DNA of 45,471 nt from Candidatus Saganbacteria bacterium (GCA_016939335.1 JAFGHC010000040.1:1-45471), one strand, 5' to 3'; positions 2,049 to 45,129 are shown, numbered from the stretch's first letter. Program-made: numbers and translations. Notes: generated by a model not told the origin, from the sequence alone.

Positions 2049-3556
2049 GTGATCCGGGAAGCATCTACCAGCGTCAAACGGCCCGGATTGCCGAGGACGC
2101 GGCACTGTTCGTAGAAGTGATGGAAAACGATCGCCAGCTCCTTGCCGTACTCGGTCACGCGGTGCGGCTGGCGCGCCGCCGCCGCGGCCGCCACCAGCCG
2201 CGGCCAGGCCAGCAGCTTGAGCATCAGTTCTCTCTCTGCCGGGTAAGTTAATCCGCTTAAATCAATTTTTGACTTTTGACTTTTGACTTTTGACTTTCGC
2301 AGGATCGAGCAGATCCGCGCGTGCGCGTACTGGAGATAATAGACCGGGTTACTGACCGACCGCTGCTTGGCCAGCTCCAGGTCAAAGTCGAGATGGGAGT
2401 TGACGTCTGTGGCGGAGAAGAAGAAGCGCGTCGCGTCGGCTCCGATCTCGTCAAGCACCTCCTGCAGGGTGATCAGCTCGCCGGTCCGCTTCGACATGCG
2501 GACCGGTTCGCCGCCCCGGTAGAGCGTGACCAGCTGGCCGATGATTATTTCAAATTTATCGGCCGGCTGGTCCAGGACCTTGAGCGCCGCTTTGAGCCGC
2601 GGGGCGTAGCCGTGGTGGTCGGTCCCCCAGATATCGATCAGCCGGCCATAGCCGCGGGCGAACTTGTCGAGATGATAGGCGATGTCCGCCGCGAAATAGG
2701 TCGGCCGGCCGTCCTCGCGCGTCAGCACGCGGTTCTTGTCGTCGCCCAGTTCCTGCGCTTTGAACCAGGTCGCGCCGCCCTCCTCGAACGTCGCGCCCAG
2801 GTCGCGCAGTTTTTGGACCGCGGCCAGGACCTCTCCCCGATCGTGCAGCTCATTTTCATAGGACCAGCGGTCGAAAGTGATACCGAGCTGGCGGAGGGTC
2901 TCTTGCTGCTGGCCGAGCAGGAAGGCCAGCATTTCTTTCCTGGTCCCGCCCTGAACATCTTTGATATAAGCTCCGCCGTAGCCACCCTCGGGCACCGGTT
3001 GCCCGGCCCGCACCGCCCGGACCGAGGCCTCGAGGTTCTCGACCTGCGCGCCGACGTTGTTGACGTAAAACTCGGTCGCGACCCGGCCGCCGGCCGCTTT
3101 CAGCAGGCGGGCGATGTTGTCGCCGATCACCGCCCAGCGGCCGTGCCCGACGTGCAGCGGGCCGGTCGGGTTGGCCGAGACAAACTCCAGCAATATCTTC
3201 TCTTCTTGACCCTTGACCCCTGACCCTTGACCCCACGCACGGTCCCGCTCGATAATTTCCGGGATCGCGTCCTGGACCACTTCGTCTTTGAGGAAAAAGT
3301 TGATAAAGCCGGGCTTGACGACCTCGATCTTGCTCGCCGTCTGGCCGCGATCGAGCTCCGCGAGCAAGCCGGCCAGGCGGCCGGCCAGCTCCAGCGGGTT
3401 CTGCCCCAGCTGGCGCGCGCCGGCGACCGCGACGCTCGAAGCGAAATCACCGTATTCTTTGCGGGGAGAGGCCGTGACCTTGCCTTCCAGTTTAACCGGC
3501 AGCGCCGCCCGTTCCAGCGCCCGGGCCAGCAGCGATTCAATTTTCTCTTGCAGCAT
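1997..3556 (-). CDS. argS: arginyl-tRNA synthetase
   Basis: LLEFVSANPTGPLHVGHGRWAVIGD (HIGH motif region), GTDHHGY, C-terminal LLGISAPESM. Confidence 0.97.
   Translation of the reverse strand: MLQEKIESLLARALERAALPVKLEGKVTASPRKEYGDFASSVAVAGARQLGQNPLELAGRLAGLLAELDRGQTASKIEVVKPGFINFFLKDEVVQDAIPEIIERDRAWGQGSGVKGQEEKILLEFVSANPTGPLHVGHGRWAVIGDNIARLLKAAGGRVATEFYVNNVGAQVENLEASVRAVRAGQPVPEGGYGGAYIKDVQGGTRKEMLAFLLGQQQETLRQLGITFDRWSYENELHDRGEVLAAVQKLRDLGATFEEGGATWFKAQELGDDKNRVLTREDGRPTYFAADIAYHLDKFARGYGRLIDIWGTDHHGYAPRLKAALKVLDQPADKFEIIIGQLVTLYRGGEPVRMSKRTGELITLQEVLDEIGADATRFFFSATDVNSHLDFDLELAKQRSVSNPVYYLQYAHARICSILRKSKVKSQKSKIDLSGLTYPAERELMLKLLAWPRLVAAAAAARQPHRVTEYGKELAIVFHHFYEQCRVLGNPGRLTLVDASRITLRNVLELLGISAPESM
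2267..2294. repeat. heptanucleotide tandem repeat, 4 x TTTTGAC, inside argS
   Basis: exact tandem ttttgac x4; encodes KSKVKSQKSK. Confidence 0.95.
3206..3233. repeat. heptanucleotide tandem repeat, 4 x (T/C)TGACCC, inside argS
   Basis: ttgaccc ttgaccc ctgaccc ttgaccc; encodes GQGSGVKGQ. Confidence 0.95.
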
Positions 3557-3572
3557 TAAGCGGCTCTTCCGG

Positions 3573-3755
3573 TCAATCTTCCTTTTTGCCGAATTCCTGT
3601 TTCAGTTCGTCGAATTTAGCTTTGCCTTTGTCCAGCGCCGCTTTCAGCTGCTCGCGGGTCTGCTCGCCTTTCTGCGGCGCGACCAGCAGGCCGCCGATAA
3701 AACCGATCAGCCCGCCCAGCGTCAGGAGCTTGAAGATCCTGTTCATTTTCCCCAT
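3573..3755 (-). CDS. YtxH-like small protein
   Basis: N-terminal glycine-rich TM segment GGLIGFIGGLLVAPQKGEQTREQL then charged helix. Confidence 0.65.
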   Translation of the reverse strand: MGKMNRIFKLLTLGGLIGFIGGLLVAPQKGEQTREQLKAALDKGKAKFDELKQEFGKKED

Positions 3756-3784
3756 TTGTGCTTCCCCTCCTCTATATCAAGCGC

Positions 3785-4024
3785 TCACTTGAACAAAATG
3801 TTCAGTAACTTTTTCAGCGCCGCGACGAAAGCGCTCCCCCGCGCCCCGACCAGCGAGACCGCCACATCGAACAGGGAGGTGACCACCCGGACCTTTTCCA
3901 GCAGGACCCGCACCGTCCGCCGGACATCGACCAGAATGAAGATCAGCTGCACCGCTCCGACGGTCAGGGCGATCAGCAGCAGGATGGCGCAAAAGATCAG
4001 GCCGTTCAAAAGATAAGTTTGCAT
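3785..4024 (-). CDS. small membrane protein, DUF948-like
   Basis: 79 aa, N-terminal TM helix (LIFCAILLLIALTVGAVQLIFILVDV). Confidence 0.45.
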   Translation of the reverse strand: MQTYLLNGLIFCAILLLIALTVGAVQLIFILVDVRRTVRVLLEKVRVVTSLFDVAVSLVGARGSAFVAALKKLLNILFK

Positions 4025-4038
4025 GCGTGTTGCCTCCT

Positions 4039-4908
4039 TTACTTATTCCTGGCCCGCGGATAAGAACCGAGCAGCTTAAGATAAGAAGCTTTGCGTTTGA
4101 TCCCCGCCAGCGCCCCGGCGATGACGCGGTCGCTCCGGTGCCCCTGCATGTCGGCAAAGAAATAATAGTCGCCGAGCGCCTTCTTGGACGGGCGGGACTC
4201 GATCTTGGTCAGGTTGATGTCGCGCCCGGCAAGCTCGGCCAGGATGTCGTGCAAACCGCCCGGCCGGTCCCGGGCGATGGAAAAAACGATCGAGGTCTTA
4301 TCGTCGCCGGTCCGCGGATGGTCTTTTTTGGCCAGGACGATGAAACGGGTCCGGTTGTCCGGCGCGTTGATCCTGGCCGCGATGACCTTGAGGCCGTACA
4401 GCCTGGCCGAGGCCGCCGTGCCGATCGCGGCAAAGACGCTCCCTTTCACCCGGCCGTGGGCAATAATTTTTTCACCCAAAGAGGTCGCGACCTGGCGGAC
4501 CGCTTCGGACGAGCTGTAGGAGAGGTGCAGTTTGGCTTTGGGCAGCTTCCGGCGCAGGAAGTCCCGGCACTGGTCGAGGACCTGCGGGTTGGAGATCACG
4601 TCGGTAATTTCGCCGAGCCTGATCCCTGTCTGCGCGATCAGGTAATGATAGATCGGCGCGACTATCTCCTGCTTGATCACCAGCTTGACGTCCCTGACCA
4701 GCGTATCGGTGACGATGGCGATCGTCCCTTCGATCGAGTTCTCGATCGGCACGATCGCCTCGTCGATCCGGCCGCGGTCGGCGGCCAGCAGCGCGTCGTG
4801 GATCGTCGAATAAGGGACCAGGTCGGCCCGGCCCTCGAGCCGGCGCGCGTAAAGGCGGCTGGCCTCCTCGCTGTTGGTCCCTTCAGGCCCGAGATATCCT
4901 ACCTTCAT
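4039..4908 (-). CDS. pheA: prephenate dehydratase
   Basis: GYLGPEGTNSEEAS, VPIENSIEGTI, ACT region LHDILAELAGRDINLTKIESRPSKKALGDYYFFADMQGH. Confidence 0.95.
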   Translation of the reverse strand: MKVGYLGPEGTNSEEASRLYARRLEGRADLVPYSTIHDALLAADRGRIDEAIVPIENSIEGTIAIVTDTLVRDVKLVIKQEIVAPIYHYLIAQTGIRLGEITDVISNPQVLDQCRDFLRRKLPKAKLHLSYSSSEAVRQVATSLGEKIIAHGRVKGSVFAAIGTAASARLYGLKVIAARINAPDNRTRFIVLAKKDHPRTGDDKTSIVFSIARDRPGGLHDILAELAGRDINLTKIESRPSKKALGDYYFFADMQGHRSDRVIAGALAGIKRKASYLKLLGSYPRARNK

Positions 4909-5344
4909 ATTTGACGACCTCCAGTTCCGATTCCTTGAGCAGTTCCCGGGCCAATTCGTCCGGGTAGCCGCCGGCGCAGACCAGCCTGACGATCCCGGCG
5001 TTGATCATCATTTTAACACAGATGACGCACGGCTGGTGCGTGCAATAGAGCGTGCCGCCGGAGATGCGGACCCCGTGCCAGGCGGCCTGGATGATGGCGT
5101 TCTGCTCCGCGTGCAGCCCGCGGCAGAGCTCGTGCCGCTGCCCCGACGGGACGTTCATCTGTTTGCGGACGCAGGTCGCCTCGCTGCAGTGGGCAAAGCC
5201 TTTGGGGGCGCCGTTGTAGCCCGAAGAGAGGATCCGGTGTTCCTTGACGATGATCGCGCCGACCCGGCGCTTGACGCAGGTCGCCCGTTCGCCGACATCG
5301 GCGGCGATCTTCATGAAGTAATCGTCCCAGGAGGGGCGGTTCAT
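4883..5344 (-). CDS. dCMP deaminase family protein
   Basis: HAEQNAI and CTHQPCVICVK zinc motifs; overlaps pheA start by 26 nt. Confidence 0.92.
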   Translation of the reverse strand: MNRPSWDDYFMKIAADVGERATCVKRRVGAIIVKEHRILSSGYNGAPKGFAHCSEATCVRKQMNVPSGQRHELCRGLHAEQNAIIQAAWHGVRISGGTLYCTHQPCVICVKMMINAGIVRLVCAGGYPDELARELLKESELEVVKYEGRISRA

Positions 5345-6288
5345 TTTTTCCTTTCCAGGGCGGCGCGGGCCGCCGCGCCGATCTCTCTGGCGGTCAGACC
5401 GTACTTGACCAGTAGCTCTTCCGGCTTGCCCGATTCGCCGAAGACATCTTTCAGGCCGACCCGGATCAGCGGCACCGGCGCGTTCTCCGCCACCACCTCG
5501 GCCACCGCCCCGCCCAGCCCGCCGATGATCGAATGCTCCTCGGCCGTGACGATGGCGCCGGTCTCGCCGGCGCAGCGGACGATCAGCTCCTTGTCGAGCG
5601 GCTTGATCGTGTGCAGGTTGACGACGCGCGCCTTGAGCCCCTCCTGTCCCAGCGCGGCGGCCGCCTCGAGCGCCGGCGCCACCATCGTGCCGCAGGCGAT
5701 GATCGTCAGGTCGCTGCCCGGCCGCATTACTTCACCCTTGCCGATCTGGAAATCGTAATCGGCCGGGTGCAGGACCGGCGTCTTCGGCCGGCTCAAGCGG
5801 ACATACATCGGCCCGTAATACTTGACGGCGGCGCGGATCGTTTTTTCGGTCTCGACAGCGTCGGCCGGCACGACCACCGTCATGTTCGGCAGCGCCCTCA
5901 TGATCGCGATGTCTTCGTTGGCCTGGTGCGAAGCGCCGTCCTCGCCGGTGGTGATCCCGGCGTGGGTCACCACGATCTTAACGCTGAGGCGGGTGTAAGC
6001 GACCGAGACCCGCACCTGGTCCCAGGCGCGGCCCGAGCCGAAAACAGCGAAAGTCGAAGCGAAAACGATCTTGCCGGCCGCGGCCAGCCCGGCGGCCGTG
6101 CCGATCATGTCCTGTTCGGCCACGCCCAGGTCAAAGAAGCGGTCGGGAAATTCTTTGGCAAAGACCGAAGTTTTGGTGGAAACGGCCAGGTCGGCGTCGA
6201 GCACCACCACGTCAGGGTTCTCCCGGCCGATCTCGGCCAGCACCTTGCCGTAGGCGTCGCGCGTCGCGATCATTTTAGTTTCGCTCAT
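5341..6288 (-). CDS. transketolase, C-terminal (pyrimidine-binding) subunit
   Basis: VAEQDMIGTAAGLAAAGKIVFASTFAVFGSGRAWDQVR; partner of the next ORF. Confidence 0.93.
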   Translation of the reverse strand: MSETKMIATRDAYGKVLAEIGRENPDVVVLDADLAVSTKTSVFAKEFPDRFFDLGVAEQDMIGTAAGLAAAGKIVFASTFAVFGSGRAWDQVRVSVAYTRLSVKIVVTHAGITTGEDGASHQANEDIAIMRALPNMTVVVPADAVETEKTIRAAVKYYGPMYVRLSRPKTPVLHPADYDFQIGKGEVMRPGSDLTIIACGTMVAPALEAAAALGQEGLKARVVNLHTIKPLDKELIVRCAGETGAIVTAEEHSIIGGLGGAVAEVVAENAPVPLIRVGLKDVFGESGKPEELLVKYGLTAREIGAAARAALERKK

Positions 6289-7130
6289 GAACTCTTTTCC
6301 CCCCGCCGGCAGAGCTCTCCCAGCGCCAGTTTTTCTTCGTCCGCGGTCGGCGCTTTGCCGTGGTAGTCGAGCGGCTTGGCCTCCATAAAGCTGACCCCTT
6401 TCCCTTTGACCGTCTCGGCGATGATCACCGTCGGTTTGCCCCTGGCTTTCACCGCTTTGCCCAGCGCTTCGATGATGGCCGGGACCTTATGCCCGTCACA
6501 CGCCAGCACGTTCCAGCCGAACGCCCGCCATTTGTCCGGGAAAGGCGCCAGATTCTTGATCCGCTCGACCGGCCCGTCGATCTGGAATTTATTATGGTCG
6601 ACGATCGCGGTCAGATTGTCGAGCTTGTAGTGGGCCGCGGTCATCGCCGCTTCCCAGACCTGCCCCTCCTGGCACTCGCCGTCGCCCAGCAGGCAATAGA
6701 CGCGGCTCTCCCTTTTGTCAAGACGGTTGGCCAGCGCCATCCCGTTGGCCGCCGACAGCCCCTGCCCGAGCGAGCCGGTCGACATCTCGATCCCCGGCAG
6801 GGAGAGCATATCAACGTGGCCCTGGAGCGAACTGCCGGTCTGGCGCAGCGTCTTCAGCTGGCTGACCGGGAAAAAACCGGCCTCGGCCAGCGCCGCATAG
6901 AGGATCGGCGCCGCGTGGCCCTTGCTCATGACAAAGCGGTCGCGCTCCGGCCAGGCGGGGTTCTTGGCGTCGTAACGCAACTGGAAAAAGTAAAGGACGG
7001 TGATGATATCGGCCGCCGAGAGCGAACCGCCGGGGTGGCCGGAGGCGGCGGCGCAGGTCATTTCGATGACGTGCCTGCGCAGTTTGACGGCCATCGCCTC
7101 TAATTCTTTGGCCTTTGACTGACTGGTCAT
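6285..7130 (-). CDS. transketolase, N-terminal (TPP-binding) subunit
   Basis: SGHPGGSLSAADI, MSKGHAAPILYA, GDGECQEGQVWEA. Confidence 0.94.
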   Translation of the reverse strand: MTSQSKAKELEAMAVKLRRHVIEMTCAAASGHPGGSLSAADIITVLYFFQLRYDAKNPAWPERDRFVMSKGHAAPILYAALAEAGFFPVSQLKTLRQTGSSLQGHVDMLSLPGIEMSTGSLGQGLSAANGMALANRLDKRESRVYCLLGDGECQEGQVWEAAMTAAHYKLDNLTAIVDHNKFQIDGPVERIKNLAPFPDKWRAFGWNVLACDGHKVPAIIEALGKAVKARGKPTVIIAETVKGKGVSFMEAKPLDYHGKAPTADEEKLALGELCRRGEKSS

Positions 7131-8002
7131 GTTAGAGACGATTGTACCATGATTTTCAACTCGGGCTCAAGCCGGACTTTGCAGCGCTTCTTGACGGAAT
7201 TCTGCATCCGCGTCATCAGCTTAATGACGTCACGGGCGCGCGCTTCGCCCAGATTGACGATGAAATTGGCGTGCTTGGCCGAGACCTGGGCGTCACCGAC
7301 CCGCACCCCCTTGCAGCCGGCCTCTTCCAGCAGCCGGCCGGCGAATTTCCCTTTGGGATTTTTGAAAATACTGCCGGCGTTCGGACAGCCGAGCGGCTGG
7401 CTGGCTTTTCTTCTGGCCAGGAACCCTTTGAACCGGCCTTTGATCCGGCGCGGCCGCCCCCGCCGCAAGCGGAAAACCACCTCGGCCACGATGTAGCGTC
7501 CGTTTTGCAGGTTGCTTTTACGGTAGCCAAAACCGAGTTGCCCCTTTTTTAAGACCGAGAGTTCGCCGTGCCGGTCAAGCACTTTGATCCGGTCGATGTA
7601 GCGGCCAAGCTCTTTTCCCCAGGCCCCCGCGTTCATGACCGCCGCCCCCCCCACCGTGCCGGGGATCCCCGCCAGGAATTCCAGGCCGGTCAGGCCGCGG
7701 CCGGCCAGCGACTTGAGCAGTTTCGAGAGCGGCAGTCCGGCGCCGGCCTGCACCACACTCCCCCGCACGGTGAGCCGGTCAAGCCCGCCGGCCAGTTTAA
7801 TGACCAGGCCATGGAAGCCCTTGTCCAGCGCCAGCAGGTTGGTCCCCGCCCCCATCACCGCGAGCGGCAGTCGGTTGCCGGCGGCAAAGACCAGCAGCCG
7901 GCGTAATTCTTCGATCGTGCCCGGCACGGAAAAATAATCGGCCGGCCCGCCGATGCGGAAAGACGTGTGTTTCTTCAGCGATTCATTACGCAGGATTTTC
8001 AT
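7127..8002 (-). CDS. murB: UDP-N-acetylmuramate dehydrogenase
   Basis: HTSFRIGGPADYF, GAGTNLLALDKG, GIPGTVGGAAVMNAGAWG. Confidence 0.95.
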   Translation of the reverse strand: MKILRNESLKKHTSFRIGGPADYFSVPGTIEELRRLLVFAAGNRLPLAVMGAGTNLLALDKGFHGLVIKLAGGLDRLTVRGSVVQAGAGLPLSKLLKSLAGRGLTGLEFLAGIPGTVGGAAVMNAGAWGKELGRYIDRIKVLDRHGELSVLKKGQLGFGYRKSNLQNGRYIVAEVVFRLRRGRPRRIKGRFKGFLARRKASQPLGCPNAGSIFKNPKGKFAGRLLEEAGCKGVRVGDAQVSAKHANFIVNLGEARARDVIKLMTRMQNSVKKRCKVRLEPELKIMVQSSLT

Positions 8003-9380
8003 GCTTCATCTTCAGCCGCGCCAGCAGTTCTTTGCCGACGGTATAAATATCGCCCGCCCCCAGCGTCAGGACGATGTCGCCCGGCTTCAGTTCTTTGATC
8101 AGGCGCTCGGCGATCTGTTCTTTTTTCGGCAGGTACCGGGTCTTTTCCCGGTCAAGCAGTTCGGCGATCGTCCGGCCGGAAACGCCCGGGAGCGGCGTTT
8201 CCGATGCGGCGTAAACGTCGGTGATGATGACACGGTCGGCGTCGCCGAACGCCCCGGCGAACTGCTCCTTGAGGATCATCGTCCGGGTGTAGCGGTGGGG
8301 CTGGAAGACGCAGATGATCCGCCGTTCCGGCCAGCCCGAACGGGCCGCCTTGAGCGTGGCGCTGATCTCGGTCGGGTGATGGGCGTAATCGTCGATCAGC
8401 AGCACGCCGTTCTGCTCGCCTACCGTCGAGAAGCGGCGCCGCGCCCCGACAAAGGTGCGCAGCGCGCCGGCCACCGTCACAAAATCAAGGCCGAACTCAA
8501 CACTGACGGCGAAGACCGCCAGGCTGTTCAGGATATTCTGCCGGCCGGGGACGGAGAGCTCGACCGCGCCAAGCTCCTGGCCGCGGCGCGTCAGCACGTA
8601 GCGCGAGCTGAAGCCGGCGAAGGAGAGTTCCCTGGCGCCATATTCCATTTCGGGCGCCAGGCCGTAAGTGATGAAGCGCCGTCCCCCCTTACCGATCAGC
8701 CGCTGGTTGTTCGGGTCGCTGCCGTCGATCACGACCAGGCCGCCGGCCGGCAGGCAGGCCATGAACCGCTCAAAGGTCGAGAGCAGTTCGTCCATCCCGC
8801 CGAAGTGCTCCATATGGTCAGCCTCGATATTGGTGACCACCTCAAGCGTCGGCGAGTAGTAGAGAAAAGAACTGTCCGACTCGTCGGCTTCGGCCACCAG
8901 ATAGTTGCCGCCGCCCAGCCGGGCGTTGCCGCCCTCGTAGTCCATGTCGCAGCCGATCAGATAAGTCGGGTCCAGCCTGGCCGCTTCCAGCACGCGGGCG
9001 GTCATGGCGGTGGTCGTTGTTTTGCCGTGCGTGCCGGCCACGGCCACCCGGTGCTTTGAGCGCGACATGATCCAGGCCAGCACCTCGGCCCGTTTGACGA
9101 TCCTGATCCCCTTGGCCGCCGCTTCGGCCAGTTCGGGATTGTCCGCCCTGACCGCCGAGGAATAGACCAGAAGATCGGCGTCGCGCACCTGCGAGCTCCC
9201 GTGGCCGATAAAAATGCGGACGCCGAGGTCTTTCAGCCGGATCGTGTTGACCCCTTCTTTCTGGTCGGAGCCGCTGACCTTAAAGCCCATCTCCAGCAGC
9301 ACTTTGGCGATCCCCGACATGCCGCAGCCGCCAATGCCGACCAGGTGGACATTCTTCATTCTTTCCAGATCAAGGTCCAT
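7986..9380 (-). CDS. murC: UDP-N-acetylmuramate--L-alanine ligase
   Basis: HLVGIGGCGMSGIAKVL, VAGTHGKTTTTAM, DDYAHHPTEI. Confidence 0.96.
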   Translation of the reverse strand: MDLDLERMKNVHLVGIGGCGMSGIAKVLLEMGFKVSGSDQKEGVNTIRLKDLGVRIFIGHGSSQVRDADLLVYSSAVRADNPELAEAAAKGIRIVKRAEVLAWIMSRSKHRVAVAGTHGKTTTTAMTARVLEAARLDPTYLIGCDMDYEGGNARLGGGNYLVAEADESDSSFLYYSPTLEVVTNIEADHMEHFGGMDELLSTFERFMACLPAGGLVVIDGSDPNNQRLIGKGGRRFITYGLAPEMEYGARELSFAGFSSRYVLTRRGQELGAVELSVPGRQNILNSLAVFAVSVEFGLDFVTVAGALRTFVGARRRFSTVGEQNGVLLIDDYAHHPTEISATLKAARSGWPERRIICVFQPHRYTRTMILKEQFAGAFGDADRVIITDVYAASETPLPGVSGRTIAELLDREKTRYLPKKEQIAERLIKELKPGDIVLTLGAGDIYTVGKELLARLKMKHENPA

Positions 9381-13734: not shown

Positions 13735-13778
13735 CCGTCAATTTTACAATATTTTAGGAAGGGGCGCAAACGGGCCAG

Positions 13779-13817
13779 AAAAAAAATAAGCCTCCCGTGA
13801 GCGCTCACGGGAGGCTT
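13779..13817 (-). terminator. Rho-independent terminator
   Basis: perfect 30 nt palindrome aagcctcccgtgagc/gctcacgggaggctt (13788-13817), then on the minus strand TTATTTTTTTT. Confidence 0.85.
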
Positions 13818-13837
13818 TATTTTATTAAAAACAACGA

Positions 13838-14359
13838 TCAGAGATAGAGTCGGCCGCCAGAATATATCTGCCCGGCATTCGCCCCAGCGAACCAGGTGGT
13901 CGCGCCGTTGGCTGAAGTCAGCGAAAAAGCGGTCAGATCAGCAAACAGCGACAGATTGGGCGCGAACACGTATTCAGCGCCGACCAGGACTGTGATCGTG
14001 GTGGTACCGCTACCGGCCGAATTGTACAGGACCGCCGGCCCCCAATAAGTCGACAGGCCGTTAGAAATCTTGCTCAAGGGGATATTCCCCCTGGCGAGGA
14101 GGGTCAGGGTAGTCGTATTGGCAGCGTTGGCGATCGTGCCGCCAACGTCTAAACTCCAGCCCCCCATGCCAAAATGGGCCGCCGGGCAGCCGACCGATGT
14201 CAGGGTCACCCCGGTCAATCCCATCAAGCTGGCGCCTGAGGAAGTGGTCGTACTGGTGGTGTCGGCCGTAACTTTTTTAGCCGGCGTGACTGTAGCGGCC
14301 AATGAAGCAACCGACATGACCAAGACTAAAAGTAACGTTAAAAATGCAGTTCTCTTCAT
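13838..14359 (-). CDS. secreted/outer-membrane beta-strand-rich hypothetical protein
   Basis: N-terminal signal peptide MKRTAFLTLLLVLVMSVASLAA; alternating strands; C-terminal GGRLYL. Confidence 0.6.
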   Translation of the reverse strand: MKRTAFLTLLLVLVMSVASLAATVTPAKKVTADTTSTTTSSGASLMGLTGVTLTSVGCPAAHFGMGGWSLDVGGTIANAANTTTLTLLARGNIPLSKISNGLSTYWGPAVLYNSAGSGTTTITVLVGAEYVFAPNLSLFADLTAFSLTSANGATTWFAGANAGQIYSGGRLYL

Positions 14360-16050: not shown

Positions 16051-16065
16051 ATACCACTGCGTGGC

Positions 16066-16093
16066 AAATCCCAACCTCCAACGTCCAACTTCA
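16066..16093. repeat. heptanucleotide repeat between tRNA-Ala and pgk
   Basis: aaatccc aacctcc aacgtcc aacttca, 7 nt period, degenerate. Confidence 0.6.
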
Positions 16094-20845: not shown

Positions 20846-22257
20846 CGGGTTGATTGGACGGCGGCGATCAGGGCGCGCGCCTTATTGACCGATTCCTGAT
20901 ACTCCTTCTCCGGGTCGGAATCGGCCACCACCCCGCCCCCGGCCTGAATGAACGCTTTGCCGCCCAGCACCAGGATGGTGCGGATGGCGATCCCCGAATC
21001 GAGATCGCCGGAAAAGCCGAAATAGCCGACGCTGCCGGCATAAAGGCCGCGCTTGCTTTTTTCGAGCTCGTCGATGATCTCCATGGCGCGGACCTTGGGC
21101 GCGCCGGAGACCGTGCCCGCCGGGAAGGTCGCTTTCAGCAGGTCGACGGCGTCCTTCCCCTTTTGCAGCCTGCCGGTCACGTTGCTGACAATATGCATGA
21201 CGTGGGAATATTTTTCGATCACCATCTCTTCGGTCACTTTGACGCTGCCAAAGTCGCAGACCCGGCCCAGGTCGTTGCGCCCCAGGTCGACCAGCATGAC
21301 ATGCTCGGCGCATTCTTTCTGCGAGGCCAGGAGTTCGTCCATCAGCTTTTTATCTTCTTCGTCGGTCCGGCCGCGGGGCCGCGTGCCGGCGATCGGCCGC
21401 ACCGTCGCCTGCCCTTTTTCCAGCCTGACCATCACCTCGGGCGACGAGCCGATGATCTTGGTCGGGCCAAGCCGGAGGTAGTACATATAAGGTGAAGGAT
21501 TGATGATCCGCAGCACCCGGTAAACATTGAACGGGTCGCCGCTGATCCGGGTCTCAAAACGCTGCGACGGAACGACCTGGATGATCTCGCCCGCCAGGAT
21601 ATATTGCTTGGCCTTCCTGACCATCGCTTCAAACTCGGCCTGCGTGACATTAGAGCGGGCGGTGACCTTGGAGAAAGCGATCGCCGGCACTTCCAGTTCC
21701 TCGCGCTTGAGATCGAGCTCCCGGTTCAGTTTCTCTTCCAGCCCGTTAATCTTAGCGCAGGCCTGGCGGTAGGCGGCTTTCGCGTCGCCAGCCACTTCGG
21801 CGTTGGCAATGATCATGATCTTATGCTTGATGTGGTCGAAGGCCAGCACCGTGCCGGCGACCAGAAATTGCATCAGCGGCAGCTTCAGCTCATCGGGATT
21901 CTTGTCGGGGATGTCTTCGATCAGCCGGACCGCGTCGTAGCCGACATAGCCGACCAGGCCGCCGTAAAAGCGCGGCAGGCCGGCCACCGCGACCGGCTTG
22001 TAGCGCTTAAGCATCTCTTTGATCTCTTCAAACGACTTTGGACTTCGGACTTCGGACCTGGAGCACGTCCCCAGAAAGGAATAACGGGCGATCTTTTCGC
22101 CCCCCTCGACCGACTCCAGCAGGAACGAATATTCCGACTCGATCTTTTTATAGGCGGAAACGGGGGTTTCCATGTCGGCCACGATCTCTTTGTAGACCGG
22201 GATGAGATTTCCCTTCTTCGCCAGCTTAATAAATTCTTTTTCGCTTGGATAAAACAT
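20842..22257 (-). CDS. trpE: anthranilate synthase component I
   Basis: PSPYMYYLRLGPTKIIGSSPEVMVRLE, PIAGTRPRGRTDEED, FPAGTVSGAPKVRAMEIIDELE, VQAGGGVVADSDPEKEY-like C-terminus. Confidence 0.94.
   Translation of the reverse strand: MFYPSEKEFIKLAKKGNLIPVYKEIVADMETPVSAYKKIESEYSFLLESVEGGEKIARYSFLGTCSRSEVRSPKSFEEIKEMLKRYKPVAVAGLPRFYGGLVGYVGYDAVRLIEDIPDKNPDELKLPLMQFLVAGTVLAFDHIKHKIMIIANAEVAGDAKAAYRQACAKINGLEEKLNRELDLKREELEVPAIAFSKVTARSNVTQAEFEAMVRKAKQYILAGEIIQVVPSQRFETRISGDPFNVYRVLRIINPSPYMYYLRLGPTKIIGSSPEVMVRLEKGQATVRPIAGTRPRGRTDEEDKKLMDELLASQKECAEHVMLVDLGRNDLGRVCDFGSVKVTEEMVIEKYSHVMHIVSNVTGRLQKGKDAVDLLKATFPAGTVSGAPKVRAMEIIDELEKSKRGLYAGSVGYFGFSGDLDSGIAIRTILVLGGKAFIQAGGGVVADSDPEKEYQESVNKARALIAAVQSTR
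22034..22061. repeat. heptanucleotide tandem repeat, 4 units GACTTYG, inside trpE
   Basis: gactttg gacttcg gacttcg gacctgg; encodes SRSEVRSPKS. Confidence 0.88.
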
Positions 22258-23207: not shown

Positions 23208-23952
23208 GATAATCCTTGATCTCCTTTATCGACATCTCGCGGTAGTGAAGGATGGAAGCCAGAAGGGCCGCGTCGGCTTTCCCTTTCACGAACGCCTCGT
23301 AAACATGTTCGTTCTTGCCGGCGCCGCCCGAAGCGATGACCGGGACCTCGACCGCGCCCTTGATCGCCCGCGTCAGCTCGAGGTCGTAGCCGGTCTTGGT
23401 CCCGTCGCGGTCCATGCTGGTGAGCAGAATTTCGCCGGCGCCCAGGCTGACGCCTTTCTTCGCCCACTCGACCGCGTCAAGACCGGTCGCCGTCCGGCCG
23501 CCATGAGAGTAAACCTCCCAGCGACTCGCGACTCGCGACCCGTGCCCCGCGACTCTTTTGGCATCGATCGCCAGGACCACGCACTGGCGGCCGAATTTCT
23601 CGGCCCCCGCCGCGATCAGCTTCGGCTCTTTGATGGCGGCCGTGTTGACGGAGATCTTGTCGGCGCCGCTCGAGAGCAGCTCGCGCATCATCTCCACATC
23701 TTTTATCCCGCCGCCGACGGTAAAAGGGATGAAGACCGTTTCGGCGACTTGCTTGACGACCTCGATCAGGATATAACGCTTATCGGAGGAAGCGGTGATG
23801 TCGAGGAAGACCAGCTCATCGGCCCCTTCTTTGTCGTAACGGGCGGCCAGCTCGACCGGGTCGCCGGCGTCCTTCAGGTCGACGAATTTCGTCCCCTTGA
23901 CCACGCGCCCCTCGGTCACGTCGAGGCAGGGAATTATCCTCTTGGCCAGCAT
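23176..23952 (-). CDS. hisF: imidazole glycerol phosphate synthase subunit HisF
   Basis: [80 protein letters not shown]. Confidence 0.96.
23521..23555. repeat. heptanucleotide tandem repeat, 5 units GCGACTC-type, inside hisF
   Basis: gcgactc gcgactc gcgaccc gtgcccc gcgactc; encodes [12 protein letters not shown]. Confidence 0.92.
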
Positions 23953-33596: not shown

Positions 33597-33620
33597 CCCT
33601 AACTCCCCCCAATCTACACT

Positions 33621-35774: not shown

Positions 35775-35816
35775 TTTTATCTATATCTTTTATTTTTTAT
35801 TTTTGATCTTTTATTT
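35775..35816. repeat. heptanucleotide repeat between the two GH57 genes
   Basis: ttttatc tatatct tttattt tttattt ttgatct tttattt, 7 nt period. Confidence 0.7.
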
Positions 35817-35819
35817 TTA

Positions 35820-38012: not shown

Positions 38013-38026
38013 TAAGCTCCTACTTT

Positions 38027-38149
38027 CTACTTTCTCTCCGTCATCGCTATCCCTTTGGTGATGACCCACATGGCGAACAGCAGTCCCAGGACGGTGACAA
38101 GAACGATCGTGCCGCAAATTATCAGCGTGATCAGGATCCCCGTATTCAT
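38027..38149 (-). CDS. 40 aa single-pass membrane microprotein
   Basis: not in the ORF track; MNTGILITLIICGTIVLVTVLGLLFAMWVITKGIAMTERK* preceded by GGAGGTGTAAG Shine-Dalgarno. Confidence 0.7.
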   Translation of the reverse strand: MNTGILITLIICGTIVLVTVLGLLFAMWVITKGIAMTERK

Positions 38150-38150
38150 C

Positions 38151-39563
38151 TTACACCTCCTGTTCCGGCGGCATTACTTTCGGTAAAACACCATAGATTC
38201 TTCTGTAAATTTCCGGATAAACGTCCTTGCCGCCGGCCAGGAGCATCGTTAACGGCATAACACTTTTCGCCAGCTTGACCATCTCCGCCGACAGCTCGAG
38301 TATCTCCCACTGCGCGTGCGGGTCTTCGCGCAATCTTGAAATATGGTAGAGCTCCCGCGCGTTGAGCGTCATCAGCGAGCGCTTGCGGTGCGCGCCGGTC
38401 AGCACGTACTGCGCCGCCACGGGCGCTTCCTTTTTTATCTCCGCGTAGAGCTCTTCCGGTAATTTTACCGCCGCCAGGAATTCTTTTTCCAGCCCGGCCG
38501 CCTTGATCTTGGGCGGCACGGTCACGCCCAGCTCCGTTTCATATAATTGCGAGGTCAGCGTCGCCATCCGGTGCCGTTTCAGCTGTCCGAAACAGCCCGA
38601 CGACACGGCCAGGTCGTAGGTCAAAGAGATATGCTCGAATTCCCGCGGGACCGCGTCATAAAACTCCATATGCTCGCAGGCTTTTTTGACGACCGCGGCG
38701 CGGGCCGGCTTCTTCATATCCTTGACGAGGCGCAGGCAATTCTGATAAGAGACGCCCGACGAAGTGTGGAGCAGCGCGGCCACCAGTTTATTGTCGGCCT
38801 GGGCGGTGTGATCGACCAGAAGGCAGCGCTGGCCGACCTTGCGCTTCCGCTCCCACTTCCCTCTCGAAAGTTTTCTCAATCCGGGATAGGTCTTTTGATC
38901 GAAATCGTTGGCAGCGGTAAAAAGCAGGATTGACGGCGCGATCTTCGCCGCCAGCCCGTACATTGTCTTTCCCAGTTCCCTGATCTCCGCCAGCTCGGAA
39001 GAAGCGAAGCGTCTCACAAGTAATTCTAAATTCCGGGCATTAATCGTTAAGCCGACCTGTCCGTAAGTCGAGAGCGGCGTCACGTAACGCGCGTCCTCCG
39101 GCTCGATCCCCTTCCCGATCAGCTCTTGGTAAAACGAATTTTGCCGCCCGACAATCTCCGAAAATCGAATTCCGAATTCCGAATTCCGAATTTCGGGTGG
39201 CACAAGAAAGCTTCCCTCCAGCTTCTGGTATCTCTGCGACTTCTCCGTATAAGAGCACAAACGGAATTTCTCTATCTCTTCCAACGCCAGCCGGGAAACG
39301 TCGATCAGATCGAAGTTGAAGACCGCGTGTTCGGCGACCGAGTGGTGCCCCATTTTGAAAATGATGGTGGAGTTTGACTTGCGGGCTTTTTCGACCTCGG
39401 CGCGGGCGTCCCGGCGCAACTCGTTGATCGGCCGGGGATCGCGGGAGATGCGGGCGTAGGAAGCGGAGAGGGTTTCGGGAGTGGCGTCCCGGCGCGGCTG
39501 ATTTTTGGTCAGTTCGTCGATAACTTCCGCGTCCAAATTATAACCGGCGAGAAAGACTTTCAT
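38151..39563 (-). CDS. thyX: double-length ThyX (FAD-dependent thymidylate synthase) family protein
   Basis: N-half MGHHSVAEHAVFNFDLIDVSRLALEEIEKFRLCSYTEKSQRY; C-half GCFGQLKRHRMATLTSQLYET. Confidence 0.85.
   Translation of the reverse strand: MKVFLAGYNLDAEVIDELTKNQPRRDATPETLSASYARISRDPRPINELRRDARAEVEKARKSNSTIIFKMGHHSVAEHAVFNFDLIDVSRLALEEIEKFRLCSYTEKSQRYQKLEGSFLVPPEIRNSEFGIRFSEIVGRQNSFYQELIGKGIEPEDARYVTPLSTYGQVGLTINARNLELLVRRFASSELAEIRELGKTMYGLAAKIAPSILLFTAANDFDQKTYPGLRKLSRGKWERKRKVGQRCLLVDHTAQADNKLVAALLHTSSGVSYQNCLRLVKDMKKPARAAVVKKACEHMEFYDAVPREFEHISLTYDLAVSSGCFGQLKRHRMATLTSQLYETELGVTVPPKIKAAGLEKEFLAAVKLPEELYAEIKKEAPVAAQYVLTGAHRKRSLMTLNARELYHISRLREDPHAQWEILELSAEMVKLAKSVMPLTMLLAGGKDVYPEIYRRIYGVLPKVMPPEQEV
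39166..39193. repeat. heptanucleotide tandem repeat, 4 x CGAATTC, inside thyX
   Basis: cgaattc cgaattc cgaattc cgaattt; encodes EIRNSEFGIR. Confidence 0.93.
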
Positions 39564-39570
39564 TAATTAA

Positions 39571-39888
39571 TTATTCGGCGTATTTTTTGACCGCTTTTTC
39601 GAACTCGGCTTCCGGCCGGAACCCGACCAGCCGCTCGACTTCCCGGCCGTTCTGGAAGACAACGATGCAGGGGATGCCGGTGACCGAATAGTCGGCGGCT
39701 TTCTCCATGTTCTCCTGCGTGTCGATCTTGCAGAACTTGATCCGGGGGTATTTTTCGGAGATCTTTTCCACCACCGGCGCCATCATCCGGCACGGGCCGC
39801 ACCAGGGGGCCCAGAAGTCAACGAAGACCGTCTTTTTTTCGTCCTCGACCTCTGTCTTAAAATCGGCGTCGGTGATTTCGTTAACCAT
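39571..39888 (-). CDS. trxA: thioredoxin
   Basis: FVDFWAPWCGPCRMMAPVVEKISEKY. Confidence 0.96.
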   Translation of the reverse strand: MVNEITDADFKTEVEDEKKTVFVDFWAPWCGPCRMMAPVVEKISEKYPRIKFCKIDTQENMEKAADYSVTGIPCIVVFQNGREVERLVGFRPEAEFEKAVKKYAE

Positions 39889-40010
39889 GCGCGGGGCTCC
39901 TCTCTTGATTTAGATAGGAAAATCTTAGCGTAAAAGTGGGGAAGTTTCAACCGTTACCGGGGAGCGTTGTGCGAATGCGGTTGCGATGCGCGTACCGTAG
40001 TGTGATAAGC

Positions 40011-40038
40011 GTAACGCGTGACGCACCACGCATAACGA
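40011..40038. repeat. degenerate heptanucleotide repeat within a larger intergenic inverted repeat
   Basis: gtaacgc gtgacgc accacgc ataacga; flanked by gcgatgcgcgt (39983-39993) and acgcgcatcgc (40040-40050). Confidence 0.6.
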
Positions 40039-40159
40039 AACGCGCATCGCCCCCGCCCCACGCTACTCGCTCTTCATTGAACATCAAGCCTGTGCTCAAT
40101 CATCAGGCGGCCGATTGGCAGCATAATATTAATAATAGCATTTGCACTGAAAACGGTTC

Positions 40160-40180
40160 AAGTCAAAAGTCAAAATTGAA
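40160..40180. repeat. intergenic heptanucleotide repeat AAGTCAA x2-3
   Basis: aagtcaa aagtcaa aattgaa; reverse-complement relative of the argS TTTTGAC repeat. Confidence 0.8.
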
Positions 40181-40195
40181 ACCCGCACCTGGCCC

Positions 40196-40438
40196 CTACT
40201 TCCCGATCGCCCGCAGCCAGCCCTTGATCTGCTCCACCGTCGGCAGGGGCTTGCCTTCGTGATAAACTTTGCCGTCGATGACGACGCCGGGGGTCATCAT
40301 GATGTACTCGGCGATCTCGGCGTAGTCGGTCACCTTGGTCACCGTGGCGTCAAGCTTCAGCTCGGCCAGCGCCCGGTTGACGCGCCGCACGAGGTCCTGA
40401 CAGTTCGGGCAACCGGGGCCTAAGACTTTGATGATCAT
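40196..40438 (-). CDS. thioredoxin-like small redox protein (CPNC)
   Basis: MIIKVLGPGCPNCQDLVRRVNRALAEL; MTH895-type redox-active disulfide protein. Confidence 0.85.
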   Translation of the reverse strand: MIIKVLGPGCPNCQDLVRRVNRALAELKLDATVTKVTDYAEIAEYIMMTPGVVIDGKVYHEGKPLPTVEQIKGWLRAIGK

Positions 40439-40444
40439 TTTTTC

Positions 40445-40533
40445 TCCCTTCGTGCTCTTGGTATCTTAGTGCCTTGGCGGTAAATTTCGAAAAGGAAATT
40501 AACCGCTAAGACACAAAAACACAAAGATCGCCA
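40445..40533. repeat. imperfect long inverted repeat (hairpin)
   Basis: cttagtgccttggcggtaaattt / aaattaaccgctaagacacaaaaac. Confidence 0.65.
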
Positions 40534-40640
40534 AAAGACTACATTAAACAGGTGGCTTATAATTATTATACTATATTGACATCGCGATAAGCCTGTGGGA
40601 AAATACTATTGACCGTTACAAATCCATGGGAGTGAACGAA

Positions 40641-41015
40641 ATGAAAAGGTGCGCTTTTTGTCTCGTGGCGGCTTTGCTGGCGGCCGGTTTCTCCGCTCAA
40701 TCACTGGCGGCCCCGCCCCCTTTTGCCAAATTAACCGCCGGGCAGAAGGCCAAGCGGGCGGCCCTGGAGGCCAGGCGCGCGCGGCTGAAAGAGCTGACCG
40801 GCCAGCTGCGGGCCGAACTGAAGAAAAAACCCGTCGACCAGGCGAAGATCAAAAAATTGAAAAACCAGCTCGCTCTCGAGCGCGATACCGCGCGGCTCGA
40901 ACTGCTCCAGTCGCTCGCGTCGCGGCCGAACCGGCAGCCGGCCAGCCGGCAAAGATTGAACAACGCGATCCAAAAGCTCAAAGAGCGGATCGCCAAAGAA
41001 CGGTCGGGCCAGTAA
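40641..41015 (+). CDS. secreted basic coiled-coil hypothetical protein
   Basis: signal peptide MKRCAFCLVAALLAAGFSAQSLAA, then K/R/A-rich helix. Confidence 0.6.
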   Translation: MKRCAFCLVAALLAAGFSAQSLAAPPPFAKLTAGQKAKRAALEARRARLKELTGQLRAELKKKPVDQAKIKKLKNQLALERDTARLELLQSLASRPNRQPASRQRLNNAIQKLKERIAKERSGQ

Positions 41016-41019
41016 ACCC

Positions 41020-42003
41020 TTAATCTTCGGAGGCCGCGGCCTCCCGCCCCAACTCCCCGTAGACGATCTGCTGCAGCTCCTTGATCAGCGTGTTCCAGTA
41101 CCTGGGGGACCCCGCTTGAGGGAAATTGTTGAGGAAATCCGGTTCGCCGCTCTGCACGGCCAGCCAGGCGGCGTAGTGGATTATTCTCATGCCCCGCAAA
41201 GCCGGGATCAATTCCAAGGCCTCATAATCGAACGGCCGGAAAGTTTCATACCCCGCGACGAACCAGTTCAGCTCGTTGGCCGACCGCTCCAGCGTGTCGG
41301 GGAGCAGCAGCCAGAGGTCCTGGACCGGCGGACCGAAGCACATGTCGTCGAAATCGACCACAAAGTACCCCTCGTTGGGCCGGAAGATGATGTTCCCTTT
41401 GTGGCAATCGCCGTGCAGGAGAATAAACTTATCTTCGGCGAACATGGGGTCTGCCTTATGGATGAACAGCTCGGCCGCTTTAGCCAGCGCGGCTTTGAAC
41501 TCGGGCAGGATAAAACCGCTCCGGAGTATCAATTCGAGATGCTGGCCGGCGGCGACGGCCGGGCGCCAGTACATCCGGGTGGAAGTTTTGTGGCGTTCGC
41601 CGGCCCGGTGGATCCGGGCGACCGTCCGCCCGAGCGTTTGCCAGCCCTCCTTGTCGAATTCGTCGACCGCCCTTCCCCCCTTTTTCGGGAAGAGCGCATA
41701 ACTGATCTCCCCCCAGCCAAAAAGCGTTTCACCATTAACGGCCAGCGGCGGGATGACGGGGAGCTCGTCCGCGGCCAGTTCCCGCAGAAAGCGTTGCTCC
41801 TCCGCGATCTGCGCGGCGGCCCAGCGGCCGGGACGGTAAAACTTGACGATCAAACGCTCGCCCGAGCCATGCCGTTCCAGCTCATAAACGCGGTTGATAT
41901 AGCTGTTGCGCTTGAGGCAGATGTTACTTAATTTCTCCCCCAGCGTCGTTTCGACCGCGCCAAAAATATTTTCCGGCGTCAAATTCTTCCAGACCGTTTC
42001 CAT
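41020..42003 (-). CDS. srkA: SrkA/YihE-like protein kinase (APH fold)
   Basis: IVKFYRPGRWAAAQIAEEQRFLRELAADELPV, LLHGDCHKGNIIF, VDFDDMCFGPPVQDLWLLLP. Confidence 0.85.
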   Translation of the reverse strand: METVWKNLTPENIFGAVETTLGEKLSNICLKRNSYINRVYELERHGSGERLIVKFYRPGRWAAAQIAEEQRFLRELAADELPVIPPLAVNGETLFGWGEISYALFPKKGGRAVDEFDKEGWQTLGRTVARIHRAGERHKTSTRMYWRPAVAAGQHLELILRSGFILPEFKAALAKAAELFIHKADPMFAEDKFILLHGDCHKGNIIFRPNEGYFVVDFDDMCFGPPVQDLWLLLPDTLERSANELNWFVAGYETFRPFDYEALELIPALRGMRIIHYAAWLAVQSGEPDFLNNFPQAGSPRYWNTLIKELQQIVYGELGREAAASED

Positions 42004-42157
42004 CTACTCTCCACCCCTTACTCTCATACCCGCTCAATTATATTCCCTTTTCACGCCAGACGTAATATAATGTTTTCGAGCCATGAAAATTGTCCGTTGC
42101 AGCGAACGAAGTGAGCGTGTCGTGAGTCGTTAGTTGTCGGCTAAAAGGAAAGCTTAA

Positions 42158-42442
42158 ATGATAAAAATCAATCACGTCGGCGGCAAGAACAAAGGCGAAA
42201 TCGCGCTTTACTCTTTGAGCACCTGCGGCTGGTGCCGCAAGACCAAAGCGCTGCTTGATAAATTGGGACTGGCCTATGACTACATCGACGTTGACCTGTT
42301 AAGCAATGAAGACGCGGCCAAGCTGGAAAAAGAAGAGATCAAGAAGTGGAACCCCAGCGGCACTTACCCGACGCTCGTCATCGATAAAAAACGGGCGATC
42401 ATCAATTACAAGGAAGAGGAGATCAGGGCGCTGGCGGAATGA
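42158..42442 (+). CDS. glutaredoxin family protein
   Basis: [41 protein letters not shown]. Confidence 0.9.
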
Positions 42443-42948
42443 GCGAGCCAACCCGGGAACAGATCGACCGGCTCCACCTCCGGCTGAAAAGCGAGGCCGA
42501 AGCGGCCGGTTACCATTTGCATCCCGACATTGAATTCACTAAAGGACTGATCAAGGGCCTGCTCATCAACGAGGCTCGCTACGGCTACTGGAACTGCCCC
42601 TGCCGCCTCGCGACCGGAGATAAAACGCAGGACCTCGACATCATCTGCCCGTGCGATTACCGCGATCCCGACTTGAACCAGTACGGCGCCTGCTATTGCG
42701 CCCTTTATGTTTCCGCCGAGATCGCTAACGGCAAAAAAGAAGCCCGACCGATCCCGGAACGAAGGCTCCCCAAGGAGGTGCGCGAAAAAATGAAGGAAGA
42801 GGCCGAAAAGAAAAAGCTTGCCGTTCCCGAGCTCCCCCTCCCCGTCTGGCGCTGCCAGGTCTGCGGCTACCTCTGCGCGCGCGAAGAGCCGCCCGAGGTC
42901 TGCCCGATCTGCAAGGTGCCGAAGGAGCGGTTCGAACGGTTCATTTAA
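42439..42948 (+). CDS. ferredoxin:thioredoxin reductase catalytic-subunit-like domain fused to C-terminal rubredoxin
   Basis: [10 protein letters not shown]...[25 protein letters not shown] and [32 protein letters not shown]. Confidence 0.9.
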
Positions 42949-42954
42949 TGTGAA

Positions 42955-43656
42955 CTAACCGGCCCGCCACCTGACCCCCAAACCCTCACGGAACCCGGCG
43001 ACTAACGCTTCCTTGAGCTCGTCAAAGCCGACCGGCCGGCCGAGCAATTCTTCCAGGCTGACGGCGTCGTGCCCGGCGTGCGGTTTTTTCAGCAGAGAAA
43101 AGGCTTCGGCTGACGGCGGGCGGACAAAGAGCGAGCCTTGCTGCAGCAGCGACCGGCGCCCTCTTTTTTGCGCGCTGCCGACGATTTTCTTGCCGCCGGC
43201 CACTACCTCGTATTCGGCAGGATAAGAAAAACATAATGACGAATGACGAATGACGAATGACGAATTAAGGATTTCCGCATTGATTCCGAAATTATTTAAG
43301 GCGCAAACTATCGCTTCAGAGATTTTTTTGTACGAAGGGACCAAGCCGGCCGGCAAAAGCGGATCGTCTTTGCCGATGACCAGCGAGTAGGTCACTTCCG
43401 CCTCGTTGTGAAAAACAATGCCGCCGCCGGTTGGCCGCCCGACCACGTCGTAACCGAGCTGTTGCGCCCGAGCCAAGTCAATTTCCTCGTATATTTTCTG
43501 GGAATAGCCCAGAGAAATGCACTTGGGCTGCCAGGAATAGATGCGGAGCGCCGGCGGGACAAGGCCTTTTTCATGGTCGCGAAAAAGCCGGAGGTCGAGT
43601 TCCATGTTGGCCGCGCCGGGCAGAGGGGACGAAACGATCAGCCGCCAGTCAGACAT
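42955..43656 (-). CDS. lplA: lipoate--protein ligase A family
   Basis: NMELDLRLFRDHEKGLVPPALRIYSWQPKCISLGYSQ, VVGRPTGGGIVFH, GGKKIVGSAQKRGRRSLLQQGSLFV. Confidence 0.88.
   Translation of the reverse strand: MSDWRLIVSSPLPGAANMELDLRLFRDHEKGLVPPALRIYSWQPKCISLGYSQKIYEEIDLARAQQLGYDVVGRPTGGGIVFHNEAEVTYSLVIGKDDPLLPAGLVPSYKKISEAIVCALNNFGINAEILNSSFVIRHSSLCFSYPAEYEVVAGGKKIVGSAQKRGRRSLLQQGSLFVRPPSAEAFSLLKKPHAGHDAVSLEELLGRPVGFDELKEALVAGFREGLGVRWRAG
43236..43263. repeat. heptanucleotide tandem repeat, 4 x ATGACGA, inside lipoate ligase gene
   Basis: atgacga x4 exact; encodes NSSFVIRHSS. Confidence 0.95.
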
Positions 43657-43659
43657 GAT

Positions 43660-45129
43660 CTATAGATTATAACGGAGATCGGGCGAGCGCGCCGCCTTCG
43701 TTTCGTCCAGCCGGCGGACCGGCGTGCCGTGAGGGGCCGACCTCACCAGTTCCGGATCGGTCTCGCATTCTCCGGCGATCTTGATCAGCGCGTCGCAAAA
43801 CGCGTCAAGCGTCGCCCTCGCTTCGCTCTCTGTCGGCTCGATCATCAGCGCTTCCTCGACGATCAGCGGGAAATAGATCGTCGGCGGATGGAAACCGTAG
43901 TCGATCAGCCGTTTGGCGATGTCGAGCGCCCGGATCCCGCACTTTTCTTTCTGCCATTTGGCCGAGAGGACGAACTCGTGCTGGCAGGGCCGGTCATAAG
44001 GCAGATAATAATGGTTTTTCAGCTTGTCCATCATATAGTTGGCGTTCTCGACCGCCCGGGCCGAGACTTTCTTCAAACCATCGGCGCCCAGCGACAAGAC
44101 GTAAGCGTAAGCTTTGACGATCACGTTGATATTGCCATGAAAGGAGTGCACTCTTCCGATCGAGTGCGGGTAATTGGCGCTTTGCAGTTTGTAACTGGCC
44201 CCTTTCTTGACGACCCGGGGGACCGGCAAGAACGGCTCGAGCGGTTTCGTCACGCCGACCGGCCCCGCGCCAGGGCCGCCGCCGCCGTGAGGGGTGGAAA
44301 AGGTCTTGTGCAGATTAAAATGCGCCACATCAAAGCCAAGGTCGGCCGGCCGGCAGATCCCCATGATCGCGTTGGCATTTGCCCCGTCATAGTAAAGCAG
44401 CGCGCCCGCTTGATGGACGATCTCAGCCACTTCCAGAATATGTTCATCAAACAGGCCAAGCGTATTGGGATTGGTCAGCATCAGTCCGGCGGTGTCGCCG
44501 CCGGCCGCCTGTTTCAGCGCGTTGAGATCGATATTGCCGCGCCCGTTCGACTTGATGACCACCGGCTCAAACCCGCAGAGCGCCGCCGAGGCCGGGTTCG
44601 TACCGTGCGACGAGTCCGGTATAATAATTTTATTCCTTGTTTTTGATTTTTGATTTTTGATTTTTGATTTTTCATTATGGTAAGCCTTGATCATCATCAG
44701 CGCCGTCAGTTCGCCGTGCGCGCCGGCCGCCGGCTGGAGCGTGAAAGCTTCGTAACCGAAGATGGCGCACAAATACCGCTCGAAATTGTAGAGCAGTTCC
44801 AGTGTCCCCTGCGCTGCCGGGCCGTCCTGCAGCGGATGCAATTCGGTAAAGCCGGGCAGTTTCGCGGCTTCCTCATTCACTTTCGGGTTATATTTCATCG
44901 TGCAGGAGCCGAGGGGATAAAATTGTGTATCGACGGAAAAATTCTTTTGCGACAGGCGGGTAAAGTGGCGGACGACGTCGAGCTCGGACACTTCCGGCAG
45001 GTCCAATTCTTCGCGCAGTAACTCTGCGGGGATCAGTTTCTTAATGTCTTCGGCAGGAGTATCCAGCTCAGGCAGAGAATAACCTTTTCGTCCGGCAACA
45101 CTCATTTCAAAGATAAGTTTGTCTTCCAT
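43660..45129 (-). CDS. gcvPB: glycine dehydrogenase (decarboxylating) subunit 2
   Basis: [52 protein letters not shown]. Confidence 0.96.
44641..44675. repeat. heptanucleotide tandem repeat, 4-5 x TTTTGAT, inside gcvPB
   Basis: ttttgat x4 + ttttcat; encodes [11 protein letters not shown]. Confidence 0.93.

Follow-up and report, generated by a model that had tools for sequence, protein, structure and literature searches.

How do tandem repeats with a unit of seven nucleotides come to lie inside the genes of conserved enzymes, and why do they persist there? Heptad repeats were recognised in bacteria decades ago, still lack a mechanism, and have mostly been treated as spacer DNA. The question is raised by a 45,471-nt contig of a Candidatus Saganbacteria bacterium (GCA_016939335.1, JAFGHC010000040.1), which is contig C14 of a 42-contig draft genome of 1.53 Mb and which we analysed in its entirety as the window. 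On balance, we consider it probable that these arrays are heptads of the short tandemly repeated repetitive (STRR) type, which disperse within genomes, are filtered by reading frame and protein fold, and are turned over at tolerant loops. In this bacterium and its relatives, four-copy arrays lie in frame within essential enzyme genes by the hundreds, and sister genera carry other units in the same protein loops. The pattern looks as if a spreading repeat rewrote a few tolerant places of each protein.

The first-pass annotation of the window, made from its sequence, listed seven heptad loci inside genes. All seven are confirmed as real arrays, and the phenomenon is far more extensive than was first described. 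Codon shuffling of the window genes, the null check that the annotation had proposed, gives a mean of 0.01 period-7 arrays, compared with seven observed; among the other periods, the same genes contain no array for 5, 8, 9 or 10 and one for period 6. The arrays reside in ArgS (two arrays), TrpE, HisF, ThyX, a lipoyl ligase of the LplA/LipB family, and a GcvP subunit, all encoded on the minus strand:

1997–3556, minus strand: argS (arginyl-tRNA synthetase; DALR_1, Arg_tRNA_synt_N, tRNA-synt_1d), carrying two arrays
2267–2297, minus strand: perfect GTCAAAA array of 4.4 units in ArgS, 24/24 lag-7 matches, encoding RKSKVKSQKSK in the loop following HARICSIL
3205–3233, minus strand: GGGTCAA array of 4.1 units in ArgS, 20/22 lag-7 matches, encoding WGQGSGVKGQ ahead of ILLEFVSANPTGPLHVGH
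22034–22057, minus strand: GTCCGAA array of 3.4 units in TrpE, 16/17 lag-7 matches, encoding RSEVRSPKS
23521–23549, minus strand: GTCGCGA array in HisF, 19/22 lag-7 matches, encoding an 11-residue peptide following AIDAKRV
39159–39192, minus strand: GAATTCG array (unit also read as AATTCCG) in ThyX, 24/27 lag-7 matches, encoding EIRNSEFGIRFSE
43235–43273, minus strand: GTCATTC array in the lipoyl ligase, 29/32 lag-7 matches, beginning AATTCGTC and encoding EILNSSFVIRHSS
44640–44676, minus strand: ATCAAAA array (AAAAATC in another phase) in the GcvP subunit, 29/30 lag-7 matches, encoding a 12-residue peptide

Beyond the window, the scan for period-7 repeats covered 752 kb, about half of the genome, and the counts per period and per unit family refer to these 752 kb. 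Period 7 stands far above every other period and above the null, with 149 imperfect arrays compared with 5, 24, 12, 30, 14 and 1 for periods 5, 6, 8, 9, 10 and 11, and with 5 period-7 arrays predicted by a Markov model. The density is ~198 arrays per Mb here; among the sister genera, compared as genome drafts G001–G008 that were sampled in part, it is 181, 127 and 102 per Mb in three and 38 in a fourth. Among named genomes, a search with ArgS yielded distant relatives only. The arrays belong to few unit families (GTCAAAA, 16 arrays; GTCATTC, 16; AAATTCG, 14; GTCGCGG, 8), and array pairs with the same unit occur within a genome 605 times, compared with 324 ± 24 under shuffling of genome labels. 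The earlier suggestion that most units contain a GAC/GAT core holds as an enrichment rather than as a rule, GTC/GAC being present in the unit of 67 of the 149 arrays as compared with ~20% of random 7-mers. As a separate observation, period 8 is second to period 7 in G001, G005 and G007 (20, 10 and 8 arrays, respectively), which hints at a step of 7–8 nt.

With open reading frames (ORFs) defined from stop to stop, 75 of the 126 arrays of at least 26 nt fall inside ORFs of at least 150 codons. The interrupted genes encode ArgS, ValS and IleS (two arrays each), HisS, HisF, TsaD, GltD, TrmD, PdxJ, RimO and TrpA, and further MetH, ThiL, HemW, Lnt, type III pantothenate kinase, QueF, a copper-type P-type ATPase and others. 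The arrays are positioned mid-gene in conserved enzymes, and the frame stays open across them. Specifically, an in-ORF array holds 2–5 whole copies, mostly 3–4, whereas arrays in cyanobacterial spacers can be far longer; the first-pass description of a dispersed heptad family, in frame in core genes and limited in copy number, is thereby borne out. In addition, GTCAAAA arrays in ORFs are oriented with the stop-free strand as the coding strand, being read as KSKVKSQ and not as the TGA-containing complement. We do not claim that genes are targeted. Perfect arrays at first appeared equally common in genes and spacers, but with imperfect arrays included the density is ~eightfold higher outside ORFs, a per-base excess in spacers that is expected if genes lose most hits by removal.

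Arrays of one unit tend to share their start and end letter. For GTCATTC, 9 of 10 arrays start with ATTCGTC, generally preceded by A (P ~1.5e-6 relative to uniform phase), while GTCAAAA arrays start mostly within the A-run and finish with AAAA or AAAAGT. The GTCAAAA unit also occurs in other phyla: 112 loci with four exact copies were collected from named genomes, and the same phase predominates across their hosts, which include Nostoc, Scytonema, Okeania, the Candidate Phyla Radiation (CPR), Bacteroidota, Nitrospirae, Omnitrophota and others, the start being at AAGTC in 78 of 137 GTCAAAA arrays of named genomes. The surroundings of the unit differ between groups, long ORFs containing 12 of 13 arrays in CPR but 5 of 91 in cyanobacteria (Fisher P 4e-11). 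The cyanobacterial arrays are often preceded by a small hairpin such as CTAGTACCGCaagGCGG, and hairpins lie beside 35% of cyanobacterial arrays versus 1% in shuffled controls; part of the phase lock there is therefore that of a larger shared element. No enrichment of hairpins beside heptads was found in this bacterium and its sister genera, and the arrays themselves are not hairpins.

Hairpins of the form CTAGT(A/G)CCGCnnnGCGG in the fetched cyanobacterial loci (e.g. L041, L049, L065) are followed in 18 of 18 cases by GTCAAAA-type heptads, some imperfect, in loci that had been chosen for the heptad. Two identical hairpins TATCCGCCGCAGGCGGATA, at L018:3193–3211 and L018:3490–3508, are each followed by GTCATTC heptads.

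The comparison of orthologous sites in sister genomes, which the first-pass annotation had called for, reveals filled, re-lettered and empty sites. Orthologous stretches were scored as arrays at 14 or more of 21 lag-7 matches, with other stretches of the same genes as the control. By this measure, for arrays whose orthologue in a sister genus is readable, 61% of orthologous stretches carry a lag-7 array, and the control figure is 2.9%. No signal is seen at lag 5, 9 or 10, while lag 6 gives 2.6% and lag 8 a weaker signal of 8.6%. The site is retained while the unit changes. The ArgS loop at 2267–2297 is filled by GTCAAAA here, AAATCCG in G004, GGGGCAA in G005, GACGAAG in G003 and CTCGCGA in G002; the HisF loop by GTCGCGA, GGGTCAA, GACGAAG or GTAACGA according to the genome, with two genomes of one genus differing; the ThyX site by GTAAGGG in G001 and GGGACGA in G003; and the GcvP-subunit site by GTCAAAA in G003, GTCGCGA in G002 and GGGGCAA in G005. 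In TrmD, GTCGCGG here corresponds to GTCAAAA in G005 in identical register, and in a signal-peptide-like region GTCATTC here corresponds to GTCATTT in G003, a single letter being altered in all copies.

Other orthologous loops are empty or hold a different kind of element. One ValS loop is empty in G001, G003, G004 and G006, and is filled, with 11 additional residues here and 8 in G002 and G005. The other ValS loop carries heptads in G008 and palindromic elements, judged by eye, in G001, G002, G003, G006 and G007; palindromes also occupy the lipoyl-ligase loop in G003 and G007 and the HemW loop in other genera. The matched stretch of G003 ValS (L325) contains one in-frame TAA stop.

Distant homologues, in which the first-pass annotation had proposed to look for the same loops without a repeat, give a divided answer: HisF here is longer than solved HisF proteins by 7 residues, an insertion, whereas in TrpA the sequence of a loop/helix region is replaced relative to solved structures, with little length change (three residues fewer). 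Strict insertion in whole units, considered as a general rule, is ruled out by differences of +4, +6, +8 and +11 residues. In 15 of 45 array-free orthologous stretches the net length change is zero, a result more in keeping with overwriting or with arrays of long standing than with recent insertion. Taken with the HisF insertion and the TrpA replacement, these pairs imply that insertion and overwriting (or old, decayed arrays) must both occur. Furthermore, array peptides and their orthologous peptides are correlated in hydropathy (rho 0.57, P 7e-5), hydrophobic units tending toward signal-peptide-like or membrane segments and KSKVKSQ-type units toward polar loops, as a filter on tolerated insertions would produce.

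Among the origins that the first-pass annotation had offered, mobile heptads are best supported: identical units are found at many loci that are unrelated, array ends are locked in phase, and orthologous sites occur both filled and empty. In the process that we envisage, arrays of ~25–34 nt (3–4.7 units) would disperse in the genome as genus-specific unit families through copying between loci, for example by template switching, by repair synthesis primed on short shared words, or by an unknown enzyme. They would land anywhere and, in genes, would be kept only if they preserve the frame, introduce no stop in the coding direction and yield a peptide compatible with the local fold; this survival filter would concentrate them in those loops of housekeeping proteins that tolerate them. 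Repeated hitting or conversion of such loops would then leave different units, palindromic elements or nothing in sister genera, and sites would persist through turnover rather than function. Local slippage in 7-nt steps probably contributes to the homogenisation of units.

Several points weigh against this dispersal. Neither an enzyme nor a donor-to-target copying event was identified in the genomes examined, and the nearest genomes belong to other genera, hence exact insertion borders are unreadable. The orthologous site pairs are non-independent, one site being common to several genomes; the stretches of equal length and the larger elements behind part of the cyanobacterial phase lock also count on this side. 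Finally, the 21 nt added to HisF are exactly three units, as local slippage would yield.

Could slippage alone suffice? In such a scheme a polymerase-set 7-nt slippage would duplicate a resident word, mutation and repeated slippage would homogenise the copies, and selection on frame would keep additions of 21 nt, with no dispersal between loci. Heptads are the commonest long class of simple sequence repeats in many bacteria, and a 7-nt polymerase contact length has been proposed, as PMC4679880 relays from Mrazek 2007; the HisF insertion, the weaker period-8 excess at orthologous sites, and units at one site that differ by one letter in all copies (GTCATTC, GTCATTT) point the same way. Such birth in place does not account for one unit recurring at many unrelated loci of a genome, nor for locked start phases, an identical unit across phyla, and filled ValS sites that exceed empty ones by 8 and 11 rather than 7 residues. 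Slippage alone is insufficient for shared units, locked ends and length differences that are not multiples of 7, and we regard it as a rather unlikely sole cause. A bolder scheme, to which we give little credence, is that heptad cassettes constant in phase and length are written at many loci by a process dedicated to this task and guided by a template, perhaps by an enzyme that copies a short nucleic acid. An old unit would be replaced by the one now current in the genome, with no change of length; if true, essential proteins would contain conserved 'writing sites' that are re-lettered genus by genus.

The conservation of positions across genera, with units changing from genus to genus, would also suit a selected DNA motif, in which the arrays bind a host factor for replication, segregation or regulation and the unit follows the specificity of that factor; for the TAACTGA repeats, MacGregor suggested a role in regulating translation (PMC4679880). 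A binding role is hard to reconcile with several unrelated units in one genome, with sites that may be empty or palindrome-filled in sister species, and with many arrays lying mid-gene in enzymes, and we judge it very improbable. The first-pass annotation had also considered contingency loci, in which gain or loss of a unit toggles genes on and off, since 7 is not divisible by 3 and a single-unit change would frameshift the gene. This proposal is not supported. The targets are housekeeping enzymes (ArgS, ValS, IleS, HisF, TrpA, TrmD) with mid-gene arrays in an open frame, rather than surface or regulatory genes hit near the start, the in-ORF copy number is narrow, unlike that of the long cyanobacterial spacer arrays, and no off-state was seen in any gene examined; we consider such switching barely credible. 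The draft state of the genome, in 42 contigs, invites the suspicion of an assembly or binning artefact, but independent sister-genus drafts share the sites with different units and the ORFs are open and conserved to either side of the arrays; for practical purposes this suspicion is refuted.

The four intergenic loci reported alongside the in-gene arrays are present but weak, with 15–18 matches in their best 21-position lag-7 windows:

16065–16089, no strand assigned: weak period-7 stretch near tRNA-Ala, 14/18 lag-7 matches, best 21-position window 16 (at 16071)
35784–35818, no strand assigned: imperfect, AT-rich period-7 stretch with a GH57 gene on either side, 23/28 lag-7 matches, best window 18
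40010: intergenic locus, best window 15
40160–40175, no strand assigned: short AAGTCAA array of 2.3 units, GTCAAAA family, best window 15

Two of the array-bearing genes have further features. The ThyX-family protein (38151–39563) is long, at 470 aa, and gives two Thy1 matches, a possible tandem duplication. Next to argS, at 507–2048, an AbiEii-type toxin gene and the partner ORF upstream of it are bracketed by a 52-nt direct repeat (88%) of the 3′ end of argS, and the toxin gene terminates in a copy of the final ArgS codons (RNVLELLGISAPETM); the arrangement has the appearance of an integration event at the 3′ end of argS.

Across a whole family, heptads are a major contributor to the peptide sequence of essential enzymes, their density being ~100–200 arrays per Mb in four of five sampled genomes. 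For aminoacyl-tRNA synthetases and other core proteins, the arrays provide a natural map of the loops that tolerate insertions. Because orthologous sites are found filled, re-lettered and empty, the origin and movement of STRRs become directly testable in close relatives. Our literature search, with most subscription papers outside its scope, found no report of heptads that lie in frame in essential enzymes and whose units are exchanged at orthologous loops. Among known systems, the small dispersed repeats (SDR) of Nostoc, reportedly described by Elhai in 2008 as hairpins of 21–27 nt, some within heptameric repeats, resemble the arrays in being tiny dispersed elements, and a few hairpins lie next to or within heptads here; unlike SDR, the arrays are not hairpins of 21–27 nt, nor do hairpins occur in excess next to them in this family. 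The TAACTGA heptamers of Beggiatoaceae, Cyanobacteria and Bacteroidetes (MacGregor 2015, PMC4679880) and the GGGAATC / GGGGA(C/T)T repeats (Rehm 2015, PMC4692102) are likewise heptamer direct repeats, patchy across phyla and without a known mechanism. The TAACTGA repeats consist of a single dominant unit that is found mostly between genes, its in-ORF copies lying chiefly at protein ends, whereas here many units lie mid-gene in conserved enzymes. The closest in-gene lifestyle is that of the Rickettsia palindromic elements, which, in the account of Ogata 2000 and 2002 given via PMC10969869, are ~150-bp palindromes that encode a conserved peptide in frame in unrelated metabolic genes; insertion in frame at tolerated sites of unrelated conserved protein genes is common to both, but here the elements are ~30-nt direct repeats without a 100–150-bp palindrome. 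The STRRs of cyanobacteria (Calothrix, Nostoc) share with our arrays, which occur far above chance, the 7-nt units, few copies, dispersal and several unit families, and even GTCAAAA with its AAGTC start phase in Nostoc, Scytonema and Okeania. Known STRRs are described as mainly intergenic, a description of known cases rather than a strict criterion, and cyanobacterial GTCAAAA lies outside long ORFs in 86 of 91 arrays, whereas here most arrays (75 of 126) are in frame within genes, many of them housekeeping genes.

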